64,000 bases of DNA, from assembly GCA_902524345.1 (NCBI GenBank), contig CABZCX010000006.1:1-64000 (forward strand), in the 5' to 3' direction. Origin of the DNA: an uncultured Pelagibacteraceae bacterium. Its GTDB lineage: Bacteria > Pseudomonadota > Alphaproteobacteria > Pelagibacterales > Pelagibacteraceae. The notes under the pieces are model-generated. The model was given only the letters and a program-made list of their open reading frames with translations, had not been told where the DNA came from and made no database searches. The first letter of the stretch is position 1. Each line of letters starts with the position of its first letter. Shown piece after piece: positions 42,641 to 51,484 of this stretch. Both the position numbers and the translations under genes were made by a program.

Positions 42641-42798
42641 ATAAATATATAATTAAGTTTTTTGATGAAATAACTGACATGTTATTTGTGGCAGCGTTTA
42701 GCACAATTAAAGCGCTACATTCCAACCAAAAAATTATCGCCAAATTACTTATTAATAGGATTTTGTCAAACTAAAACTAAAGAAGATGAGTGTTATTT
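42641..42798 (-). promoter_or_regulatory. Spacer rpoC-rpsL: 5' leader with two hairpins and a possible promoter
   Basis: This is the largest gap in the 29.5-kb minus-strand block. It contains TTGACA on the minus strand at 42769-42764, with TAATTT 16 bases downstream as a weak -10. Two stem-loops follow: TAGCGC/GTGCTA around seven bases at 42717-42699, and AATAAC/GTTATT around ATGTCA at 42686-42669. The rpsL ATG is 28 bases further. Such an arrangement suits a ribosomal-protein leader (control by S12 or S7), but no known motif is recognised. No clear Rho-independent terminator for rpoC is seen. Confidence 0.35.
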
Positions 42799-46974: not shown

Positions 46975-49900
46975 TTAATTTAATTCCACATTTAGAGCTA
47001 AAGATTTTATCTCCTTAACTAACACATTGAATGACTCTGGTATTCCTGACTCAAAGTTTTCTTCACCTTTAACAATTGTTTCATATACTTTTACTCGTCC
47101 AGCTACATCATCAGATTTCACCGTTAAAATTTCTTGAAGTGTATAAGAAGCACCATAAGCCTCTAAAGCCCATACTTCCATCTCACCAAATCTTTGACCA
47201 CCTAATTGAGCCTTACCACCCAATGGTTGTTGAGTAACTAAACTGTATGGTCCAGTTGATCTAGCATGGATTTTATCCTCAACTAAATGATGAAGTTTCA
47301 ACATATATATAATCCCAACCGTTACAGGTCTGTCAAACATTTCTCCAGTCCTTCCATCCCATAAATATGTTTGTCCTGAGCCAGGCAATTTTGCTAATTC
47401 AAGCATCTCGGTTACATTTTTTTCTTTAGCTCCATCGAAAACTGGTGTCGAAATTGCTATGCCATTTTGTAAATTTTCACATAAATCTTTAAATTCAGTT
47501 TTACTTAATTTATCAACTTTATTTTGGAATATTTCTTCACCATAAACTGATTTTAAGAAATTTGAAATTTTTTCAGTTTTCTCAATTCTTTTATAGTTTT
47601 CATTTACTAATCTTTTAACTTCTTCTCCAAATTCTTTACAAGCCCAACCTAGGTGAGTTTCTAAAATTTGACCGACATTCATTCTACTTGGTACTCCAAG
47701 AGGATTTAATACTATATCAACTGGTCTACCATCCTCCCTGTAAGGCATATCCTCGACTGGAACAATCTTGCTCACTACCCCTTTATTACCATGCCTTCCT
47801 GACATCTTGTCTCCAGGTCTCAGCCTTCGTTTTATTGCAACAAAAACTTTAACCATTTTCATAACACTTGGTAGTAAGTCGTCACCACTTCTAATCTTTA
47901 AAACTTTATCCTCAAACCTATCAGTTATATCCTGCTTTGCAGAGGTGTATTGGTCTTTTAATTGAATAAGTGCTTCTTCTCCTTTTGAATCACTCGATGA
48001 AATCTTAAATACGTCATTAATAGAAAGCTTATTAATAGTATCAAAATCTAATTTTGTTCCTGACTCAACATCTTTAATTTTTTTCGCTAAAGATGAGCCA
48101 GACAAAATTTGAGAGGCTCTTTGTTTAATACTTCTCTCTAAGATTTCTTCCTCGACAATCTTATCTTGTTGAACTTGATCGATCTCAGCACGTTCAATAG
48201 TTATAGATCTTTCATCTTTTTCAATACCGTGCCTGTTGAATACTCTCACATCTACAACTGTTCCACTACTTCCTCTTGACATCCTTAAAGAAGTGTCAGT
48301 TACATCTATTGCTTTTTCACCAAAGATTGATCTTAATAATTTCTCCTCAGGGCCAGAAGCAGAGTCACCTTTTGGGGTCACTTTGCCCACCAATATGTCT
48401 CCTGCATTTACTTCTGCACCAATATAAACAATTCCTGACTCATCAAGATTTTTTAAAGCTTCCTCATTCACATTTGGGATATCTCTTGTGATTTCTTCTT
48501 CACCAAGTTTAGTGTCTCTTGCCATTATTTCATATTCCACAATATGAACAGATGTGAAAACATCATCTGTTACACATCTTTCGGAGATTAATATAGAGTC
48601 CTCAAAATTATAACCTTGCCAAGGCATGAATGCTACAGTAACATTTTTTCCTAAAGCCAACTCACCTAATTTTGTTGAGGGTCCGTCAGCAATTATATCA
48701 CCAGATTTTACTTTATCACCAACTCTTACTAAAGGTCTTTGATTGATACATGTATTTTGGTTTGATCTTTTAAATTTTTGTAAGTTATAAATATCCACAC
48801 CAGATTTTGAGAAGTCAGTTTCCTCTGTAACTTTAATTACAATCCTTTTACCATCTATCTTATCAACAATTCCATTTCGTTTAGCTACAATAGTTACTCC
48901 AGAGTCAAGCGCTACATCACTCTCTATTCCTGTGCCAACCAAAGGAGCTTCTGGTTTTAAGAGTGGTACAGCCTGTCTCATCATATTTGATCCCATCAAT
49001 GCTCTATTCGCATCGTCATTTTCTAAAAAAGGTATTAAAGATGCAGCAACTGAAACTAATTGTTTAGGGGAAACGTCAATATAGTCAATTGTTTCTGGTT
49101 TTGCCAAAAGAAAATTAAGATTTTGTCTACAAGAGACTAGTTCTTCAATTATCTTTCCCTTTTTATCAATCTTTGTGTTTGCTTGTGCAATTGTAAATTT
49201 AGTTTCCTCCATTGCTGAAAGATATTCCACATTATCTTGAACTATTCCCTCTTTAACTCTTTTATATGGACTTTCAATAAAACCGTACTTATTTATTTTT
49301 GCATAAGTTGATAAACTGTTTATTAATCCAATATTCGGTCCTTCAGGTGTTTCTATTGGACATATTCTTCCATAATGAGTTGGGTGAACGTCTCTGACCT
49401 CGAAGCCTGCACGTTCTCTTGTTAATCCACCTGGTCCTAGAGCCGAGACACGTCTTTTATGAGTTATTTCAGAGAGTGGATTTGTTTGATCCATAAATTG
49501 TGAAAGTTGAGAGCTCGCAAAAAAATCTTTCAAAGAAACAGTCAGTGGTTTTGCGTTAATTAAATCTTGGGGCATCGCTGACTCAACATCTAATGTAGTC
49601 ATTTTTTCTTTTATGGCTCTTTCCATTCTATAAACACCAATTCTTGCTTGGTTTTCGACTAATTCTCCAACAGATCTAACTCTTCTGTTGCCCAGATGGT
49701 CAATATCATCAACTTCATCTTTACCATCTCTTAAATCTAACATTTTGTGTATTATTGCTATTATATCATCGTTTCTTAAAATTGTAATTTTGTCTGAACA
49801 CTCTAAATTTAACCTTGAATTCATTTTTACTCTTCCAACATCAGAAAGGTCATATCTATCAGAACTAAAAAAAAGATTATTAAAAATCTGTGCTGCAATT

Positions 49901-51063
49901 TCAATAGTTGGTGGCTCACCTGGTCTCAACATTTTATAAATTTCAGTTATGGCCTCTTCTTTAGTGTTATTTTTGTCATTGAGTATAGTGTTAAGTAAGT
50001 ATGGACCTTTATTAATTGAATTAGTTTTTGATATATCTATAGAATATATCTTTGACTCTAATATTTTATCAATGACTGTCTCATTTATTTCAGTTCCTAT
50101 TTTGAAAACATCATTTTCATCACTCCCATATTTTATATCTGAATGTAAAAATTTTCCGTACAAGGACTCTTTCGAAACAAGTATGTCTTTAAGTCCATCA
50201 TTGAATAATTTTTTTGCATTAATAAAATTAATTTTTTCACCTAATTTAATAACTACTTTACCTGTCTTTGCATCAACAACTTCCTCAGAAAAATTTTTTG
50301 ATTTATAATTCTCTGGATCAAATTTTGTTTTCCATTTATGATTCTTAGAATCATAAGAAAGTTTTTCTTTTTGATAGAACTCATTAGCAATTTCTGTTTT
50401 TGTAAAACCAAGTGCAAGCAGTAATGTTGAGGCAAAAATTTTCTTTTTTCTGTCTATTTTAAAATATAAAAAATCTTTAACATCATATTCAAAATCTAAC
50501 CACGACCCTCTATTTGGGATAACTCTGCAATTAAATAATAATTTTCCACTAGCATGAGTTTTACCTTTATCATGGTCAAAAAAGACACCAGGACTTCTAT
50601 GCATTTGATTTACAACAACTCTTTGAACTCCATTAGTTATAAACGTTCCACTATTAGTCATCATTGGAACTTCACCCATATAAACTTCTTGCTCTTTGGC
50701 AGATAATATATCTTTAGTATTATTTTCTTGATTTATATCGTAAACGACTAATCTTAAAGTGCATTTTAATGCAGAAGAATAAGTTAGACCTCTAGCAATA
50801 CATTCCTCAACATCAAATTTTGGTTTTTCTAACCTGTAAGAAACATATTCTAAGGTTGCCTTATCATTCAAATCCTCAATTGGAAAAATACTTCTAAAAA
50901 CTCTATCAAATCCTTTAGCTAAATCACCAGCTTCTGATTTAAAATGGGTTAATTCATGATAAGAATTTTTTTGAACCTCAATTAAGTTTGGTATTGATAA
51001 ACTCTCTTTTAATTTACCAAAACTTTTTCTAATATTTTTTTTTTCTGTAAAAGATATTTGCAT
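46975..51063 (-). CDS. rpoB: RNA polymerase beta subunit
   Basis: Beta (1362 residues) has normal length and order of blocks. The rifampicin region [31 protein letters not shown] is wild type. [55 protein letters not shown] and [40 protein letters not shown] are all present. It starts at the ATG at 51063, ten bases downstream of a strong hairpin in the spacer after rplL; no Shine-Dalgarno sequence is visible there. Confidence 0.98.
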
Positions 51064-51073
51064 CTATACTTTG

Positions 51074-51099
51074 ATACTGACTAAAAAGTTAATCAGTAT
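51074..51099 (-). promoter_or_regulatory. Eleven-base-pair hairpin between rplL and rpoB
   Basis: On the minus strand ATACTGATTAA pairs with TTTAGTCAGTAT-type sequence around a CTTT loop: seven perfect pairs (ATACTGA/TCAGTAT), one G-T pair and three A-T pairs inward. It is centred in the 55-base spacer and ends ten bases before the rpoB ATG. No T-run follows, so it is not a complete intrinsic terminator. Its place matches the attenuator and RNase III processing region that lowers rpoBC expression relative to rplJL in E. coli. Confidence 0.55.
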
Positions 51100-51118
51100 T
51101 TAAAAAAATCCTTTTAAA

Positions 51119-51484
51119 TTACTTAAGTTCTACTTTTGCGCCTGCAGCTTCTAACTTCGCTTTTATTTCTTCAGCTTCTTTCTTTGGAACACCAGTTTTA
51201 ACTTCTTTTGGTGCACCCTCAACTAAATCTTTTGCTTCTTTTAAGCCAAGCGATGTTGCTGCTCTTACTTCTTTAATGACATTTATCTTTTTGTCACCCG
51301 CAGATACTAGCATGATTGTGAAATCATCTTTGTCTTCTGCTGGCGCTGCACCTCCAGCTGCTGCTGGCGCTGCTGCGGCCATTGGGGTTACACCCCATTT
51401 TTCTTCAAGTTGTTTTGAAAGCTCGGCTGCCTCAGCAACTGTCAAGCTTGATAAATCTTCTATAATTTTATTTAGGTCAGGCAT
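51119..51484 (-). CDS. rplL: 50S ribosomal protein L7/L12
   Basis: The stalk protein (121 residues) has the N-terminal dimerisation helix [25 protein letters not shown], an Ala/Gly hinge ([17 protein letters not shown]) and the C-terminal factor-binding domain [41 protein letters not shown]. The hinge is richer in GC than its surroundings because of Ala codons. Five bases after rplJ. Confidence 0.98.

Follow-up and report, generated by a model that had tools for sequence, protein, structure and literature searches.

A selected RNA stem-loop in the rplL-rpoB spacer of SAR11 bacteria

The spacer between the genes rplL and rpoB of SAR11 bacteria contains a hairpin that is real and selected: its pairing is kept while its letters change. 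Our best reading, which we adopt tentatively, is that of a cis-acting RNA stem-loop under selection that acts post-transcriptionally at the rplL-rpoB junction, with rpoB being initiated independently. The features of the junction are listed in Table 1 for the window, i.e. the whole stretch of 64 kb of DNA from an uncultured Pelagibacteraceae bacterium that was analyzed.

Table 1. Features of the rplL-rpoB junction, with their positions in the window
Feature	Position	Strand	Basis
rplL (ribosomal protein L7/L12)	51119..51484	(-)	ORF; name from sequence
AAAGGA, Shine-Dalgarno (SD)-like box upstream of the stem	51109..51114	(-)	complementary to part of the 16S tail CCTCCTTTCT
U-rich linker, SD-like box to stem	51100..51108	(-)	sequence
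rplL-rpoB stem-loop	51074..51099	(-)	sequence, fold, covariation in genus g1
5' arm of the stem-loop	51089..51099	(-)	
Loop of the stem-loop	51085..51088	(-)	
3' arm of the stem-loop	51074..51084	(-)	
Stem-to-start linker, ten bases, without SD core	51064..51073	(-)	sequence; genus count
rpoB (RNA polymerase beta subunit)	46975..51063	(-)	ORF; name from sequence; relatives via protein match

On the minus strand the hairpin reads from 51099 to 51074 as ATACTGATTAA-CTTT-TTAGTCAGTAT. Sequence and fold confirmed its description in a first-pass annotation of this DNA: 11 pairs (one of them U·G) and a 4-nt loop, placed in a spacer of 55 nt (51064-51118) with ten bases (51073-51064) between the 3' end of the hairpin and the rpoB ATG at 51063. 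The stem-loop has a minimum free energy (MFE) of -9.5 kcal/mol (z -5.3) and the whole spacer one of -11.1 (z -3.2); in both cases none of 200 shuffles was as low. The window has 11 spacers of 25-400 nt between same-strand genes, as defined by a simple ORF rule, and of these the rplL-rpoB spacer had the best fold z-score (-2.7). When we counted all stems of at least 11 pairs with at most one G·U and a loop of 3-8 in the 64 kb, we found 3 places on the plus strand and 6 on the minus strand, two places being common to both strands. Because there are nine such strand-sites, the length of the hairpin alone is not exceptional. The first-pass annotation had argued from stem length that the hairpin is likely to be selected. 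Selection is upheld by conservation and covariation, but length as the argument for it is not; the decisive evidence is conservation. An in-frame TAG or TAA was located immediately 5' of the rpoB ATG in 103 of 128 spacers of the window's genus (51061-51066 in the window).

Relatives were sorted into groups with arbitrary codes (g1, g5, f2 etc.), g1 being the genus of the window, Pelagibacter. One source of loci was a named collection of SAR11 single-cell genomes and MAGs, from which the best 80 matches were taken. Matches were present in 80 of 121 genus genomes (30 loci kept), 229 of 297 family genomes, 122 of 147 order genomes and 129 of 142 class genomes, and in 24 of 24 genomes that were re-searched individually. 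Loci were taken from a part of the matched genomes, e.g. from 24 of 40 in f2. The genus set is biased to close relatives, and 20 mostly more distant members were added. Altogether spacers came from 159 g1 loci (128 distinct, the window's own included), 19 g5 (L169-L178 and L304-L312), 24 f2 (L185-L208), 12 g6 (L179, L273-L283), 6 g149, 5 g3, 5 g150, 4 g2, 3 g4 and 2 g151 loci as well as from one locus each of g152, g153, g154 and g156. One g4 locus had no spacer, and one g2 spacer containing an N was left out of the counts. Spacer length was 43-59 nt in g1 and 38-71 nt across groups.

By a fixed rule (stem-loop energy of -5 or lower, at least 6 pairs) a hairpin was present in 126 of 128 distinct g1 spacers and in 189 of 210 distinct spacers across the order, so that most of the order, as in E. 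coli, has an RNA structure between rplL and rpoB. Spacers without a hairpin by this rule were 11 of 12 in g6, the single members of g152, g154 and g156, 2 of 128 in g1, 2 of 16 in the f2 genus g7, and one each in g5, g149 and g150. The g6 spacers are shorter (38-49 nt) and carry at most a small stem near the rplL stop, often GTAC/GTAC around a TTCG-like loop. Stem sequences are unrelated between several genera. When single spacers were folded and compared with 60 shuffles each, the median z was strong in g1 (-3.8), g2 (-4.4), g5 (-4.1) and g150 (-3.1), weak in f2 g7 (-1.6), g149 (-1.7), g3 and g4 (-2.4 each), and absent as a signal in g6 (-0.6).

The search for compensatory base changes across SAR11 that the first-pass annotation had proposed gave a strongly positive result. 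In g1 spacers, aligned by MAFFT from sequence as in the other groups, 94.2% of pair cells are canonical and both sides change in 10 of 12 pairs. None of 500 shuffles reached any of the five covariation measures, and slid versions were surpassed as well, over which the tested structures had an advantage as they came from the window or from one member. The result was the same for g5 (89.4% canonical, both sides changed in 9 of 15 pairs, 0/500 shuffles on all five measures). The signal was weaker in f2 g7, where 94.4% of cells are canonical, 3 of 10 pairs changed on both sides and three of the five measures were passed; the other two did not go beyond the shuffles (pairs changed 28/500, pair types 499/500). 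Parsimony on one quick tree from flanking coding DNA counted 45 switches from one Watson-Crick pair to another in g1 and 48 pair-breaking changes, 25 of which fall on the two end pairs of the stem. Cells with G·U far outnumber those with A·C (121 vs 13 in g1, 32 vs 2 in g5), and for this reason the folding molecule is probably the rpoB-sense RNA and not DNA or the antisense strand. A chance stem in AT-rich DNA, or an operator palindrome in the DNA, would fit the nine strand-sites with long stems in the window, but the comparative data refute both: covariation in g1 and g5 exceeds every shuffle, G·U is much commoner than A·C, and loop length varies (3-11 in g1). We regard the probability of either as negligible.

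Outside the order, 68 loci were taken from the 129 matched genomes (two of the 129 lie inside the order), and 58 of the 68 gave a spacer, with a median of 195 nt. Longer spacers frequently have stems of their own. Four short spacers from other Alphaproteobacteria (6, 25, 29 and 52 nt) are without a comparable stem, and we therefore rejected the hairpin as a feature of all Alphaproteobacteria. We then searched 20 genomes with a covariance model built from the g1 spacer, scoring 150 first-look candidates per genome out of thousands. Eight of the 20 genomes had one match each with E < 0.01, always at the rpoB junction; every match away from the junction had E >= 0.8, i.e. there is no second strong copy in these 20 genomes. 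No match at all was obtained in 6 of the 20, all of them outside g1. A DNA operator or repeat was rejected on these non-junction matches as well as on the G·U bias and the variable loop length. No Rfam family matched positions 50900-51250 up to E = 1. The rpsL motif (RF01823) was located at 42655-42743 (-), between rpoC and rpsL. Since this motif and the rplL-rpoB hairpin flank rpoBC, the two genes are bracketed by two structured RNAs. The other coding gaps of the super-operon holding rpoBC are tiny.

The first-pass annotation had seen no SD sequence before rpoB. For the usual position this is correct, as an SD core at -20 to -4 occurs in only 3 of 128 g1 spacers, but the AAAGGA box upstream of the stem had been overlooked. 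We rejected the notion that a missing SD is special to rpoB: among 61 longer ORFs of the window 15 have a core SD at -20 to -4 (5 of 61 at a control position). A 16S tail of the form ...GGATTACCTCCTTTCT was matched in 5 of 11 genomes (three g1, one g2, one g3), and AGAAAGGAGGT is the complement of the 16S end because the tail reads this way. The tail is GGATTACCTCC in L313, L314 and contig C1 of G000; it differs from GGATCACCTCC, which we had assumed to be the 16S tail and for which an exact search gave no match in the 11 genomes. An SD-like box upstream of the stem was present in 114 of 128 g1 spacers (AGGA in 68, GAAAG in 46, both being parts of the 16S-tail complement) and lacking in 14. 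In 107 of 128 the duplex of the box with the 16S tail is better than 95% of shuffles. On the g1 tree parsimony placed 4 changes between the AGGA and GAAAG forms, 2 gains and 3 losses.

The linker from box to stem has a mean length of 8.6 nt in g1 spacers with the AGGA form and of 7.0 nt in those with GAAAG. In g1 a mean of 43-45 nt of continuous sequence separates the box from the AUG, or about 18 nt if the aligned stem is left out of the count (19 nt in the window, by hand). If the spacing is aligned to a full SD, it is about 13-16 by hand (window 16), with medians of 10 and 13 for stems as folded. The aligned spacing thus ranges from 10 to 16 nt depending on how the stem is drawn, and in g1 the stem-skipped spacing is not clearly less variable than the linear one. 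In f2 the SD-like sequence is found between the stem and the rpoB start (scored with the g1 16S tail, no f2 tail having been recovered). Many f2 members have GGGYGA or AGGTGA at this place, which are able to pair with the g1 tail, and in several the rpoB start is GTG. The groups g3, g149 and g150 have the stem and no SD match on either side of it, whereas upstream matches in g4, g5 and g151 are weak ones only. The upstream SD that a split site would use is thus found in g1 and is lacking in g3, g149, g150 and nearly all f2.

Where the box lies upstream, the order of elements is that known from the split sites of T4 genes 38 and 25, namely SD, stem-loop and AUG. According to the accessible part of PMC3014915, a stem between SD and AUG cuts the spacing from 22 to 5 nt and from 27 to 11 nt in these two genes; gene 25 resembles the SAR11 case further, as it also concerns an intercistronic junction and a narrow phylogenetic range. 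In contrast to T4, SAR11 g1 keeps about 18-19 nt after looping out, the gene is a bacterial housekeeping gene, and the stem occurs even in groups that lack an upstream SD. It is conceivable, though on balance unlikely, that Pelagibacter, a genus of the commonest ocean bacteria, starts the essential gene rpoB from a split site with the SD 43-45 nt upstream, across the stem-loop. The stem would then be the older, order-wide feature, and the SD would have moved from one side of it to the other: it lies downstream in f2 and upstream in g1 and g2, and elsewhere it is weak or lost. Since genera lacking an upstream SD have kept the stem, bridging from SD to start cannot be its order-wide or sole function, and a split site would be an older junction element put to use at the level of the genus.

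The comparison with E. coli raised by the first-pass annotation concerned the region between rplL and rpoB where Barry et al. in 1980 reportedly located an attenuator and an RNase III site. The likeness holds in so far as it is the same junction in the same operon, with RNA structure between ribosomal-protein and polymerase genes. It ends at attenuation by an intrinsic terminator: SAR11 has one short AU-rich stem in spacers of 38-71 nt, and in none of the 128 g1 spacers is this stem followed by a U run, defined as 4 consecutive U or 6 U within 9 nt. The same test was negative in g2, g3, g4, g149, g150 and f2, and no terminator-like match was found in 50900-51300, which led us to reject an intrinsic terminator in g1. 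In g5, whose stems are longer with a median of 14 pairs, at least 6 U in 9 nt follow the stem in 13 of 19 spacers, and this group might therefore have a partial terminator; the single g152 spacer has 4 consecutive U. An attenuator or pause site that reduces the flow of polymerase into rpoBC, as in E. coli, would share the junction and fit the U-rich stretches of g5 and g152, but given the missing U runs elsewhere we consider it very improbable. An RNase III processing site separating rplL from rpoB, likewise E. coli-like, appears improbable to us. Stems of about 10-14 pairs are short for the enzyme. The RNase III domain was present in 11 of 11 Pelagibacterales genomes searched, which says little because it was also found in 8 of 14 control genomes. 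In its favor, the accessible text of PMC2777011 lists E. coli rplL-rpoB as an RNase III substrate.

The main rival to an independent or split start of rpoB is protection or processing of the message. As mRNA punctuation the stem would halt 3'-5' exonucleases and thereby stabilize the highly used rplKAJL part relative to the long rpoBC part; in a variant it would shield the 5' end of a processed rpoBC message. Punctuation agrees with a structure that is kept while its sequence is free, and it is independent of the position of the SD. Of the 189 spacers with a hairpin, 188 have a stem that begins at least 10 nt past the rplL stop, which is also in line with punctuation, 10 nt being about the edge of a terminating ribosome. 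A similar intercistronic stem is known from the puf operon of Rhodobacter. On the other hand these AU-rich stems have modest folding energies (median spacer MFE -11.7 in g1, -6.8 in g4), and the SD-like box beyond the stem in g1 is left unexplained. Taken jointly we hold the two versions to be possible but somewhat doubtful. The stem might instead bind a regulatory protein, such as L10-L12 or RNA polymerase, for autogenous control of rpoB. The g1 core CTGATTA/TAATCAG is strongly kept, with the commonest pair at 25-49, 26-48 and 27-47 in 119, 123 and 119 of 128, and CTGAT/ATCAG recurs in g2, g150 and g151; the available part of PMC10931766 moreover describes E. coli rpoBC as under its own autogenous control. 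However, stem and loop sequences are unrelated in g3, g4, g5, g149 and f2 and the loop varies in length, so we give such a site little credence.

The first-pass annotation had also suggested that the hairpin, lying so close to the ATG, could hide the ribosome-binding region. We compared the predicted openness of the region from -6 to +12 around the rpoB start between native and shuffled spacers. The start was more open with the native spacer in 37 of 43 g1 cases (every third distinct spacer), 18 of 19 in g5, 20 of 24 in f2 and 20 of 22 in g2, g3, g4, g149 and g150 together, a result that is partly expected from any strong local hairpin. A hidden rpoB start is thus not supported. A conserved leader peptide ending at rpoB was rejected as well, the frame from the CTG of the stem to the ATG being mixed (54/36/25 over the three frames).

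We favor an independent, open rpoB start, followed by protection or punctuation of the message, then by protein binding and RNase III processing, and by attenuation last. For the independent start we propose that the stem-loop would act post-transcriptionally within the rplKAJL-rpoBC message, where rplL is followed by rpoB. As far as the text of PMC10666635 is accessible, a distance of about 20 nt leaves almost no termination-reinitiation in six gene pairs from E. coli and Haloferax. With reinitiation nearly gone at this distance, spacers of 38-71 nt should already uncouple rpoB from rplL, and in the window the 55 nt alone would rule out such coupling. The stem would occupy the spacer's own bases, so that the rpoB start may stay unpaired. 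In Pelagibacter (g1, g2) it might in addition form the middle part that is looped out of a split ribosome-binding site; the other genera would have kept it with an SD that is downstream, weak or missing. The remaining gaps between coding genes from rplK to rpoC are at most 6 nt in the window (simple ORF rule). As the genome could likewise just have shortened this spacer, the stem presumably does something that a short gap cannot. The junction element would probably allow a single message to yield the products of rplL and rpoB in unequal amounts.

Other structured RNAs are known around rpoBC. One is the rpsL motif of Pelagibacter, on the far side of rpoBC and within the same super-operon; unlike the rplL-rpoB hairpin it is larger, with several stems, in the part of its description available to us. 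To judge from its name, the Lacto-rpoB motif (RF01709) is a candidate structured RNA linked to rpoB; its accessible entry lists it for Lactobacillales, and at the SAR11 hairpin no Rfam family matched. For cyanobacteria, a conserved RNA upstream of rpoBC (cluster 245, PMC1242208) is likened by its authors, in the accessible text, to the E. coli attenuator. It belongs to another phylum, and its likeness to the SAR11 hairpin is one of description. A screen for Pelagibacter RNAs (PMC2704228) focused on intergenic regions over 100 bp and yielded the rpsB, rpsL, ffh and SAM-V motifs; in its available text the authors state that they tried a lower cut-off with few further candidates, and a word search of the main text found no mention of rpoB or rplL. 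Our literature search, which covered mainly openly available papers without their supplements, returned no earlier report of the rplL-rpoB hairpin.

A spacer of 43-59 nt would fall outside an intergenic screen of >100 bp, and other short elements may do so too. If the split start site is true, an arrangement familiar from phage T4 would have a counterpart in a bacterial housekeeping gene. Because SAR11 has few regulators and little spare DNA, the RNA element points to how these cells may set the amount of their translation machinery relative to that for transcription, with no terminator of the E. coli kind. It is kept across most of the SAR11 order at the junction between ribosome and polymerase genes, and it is this ratio that it may set.
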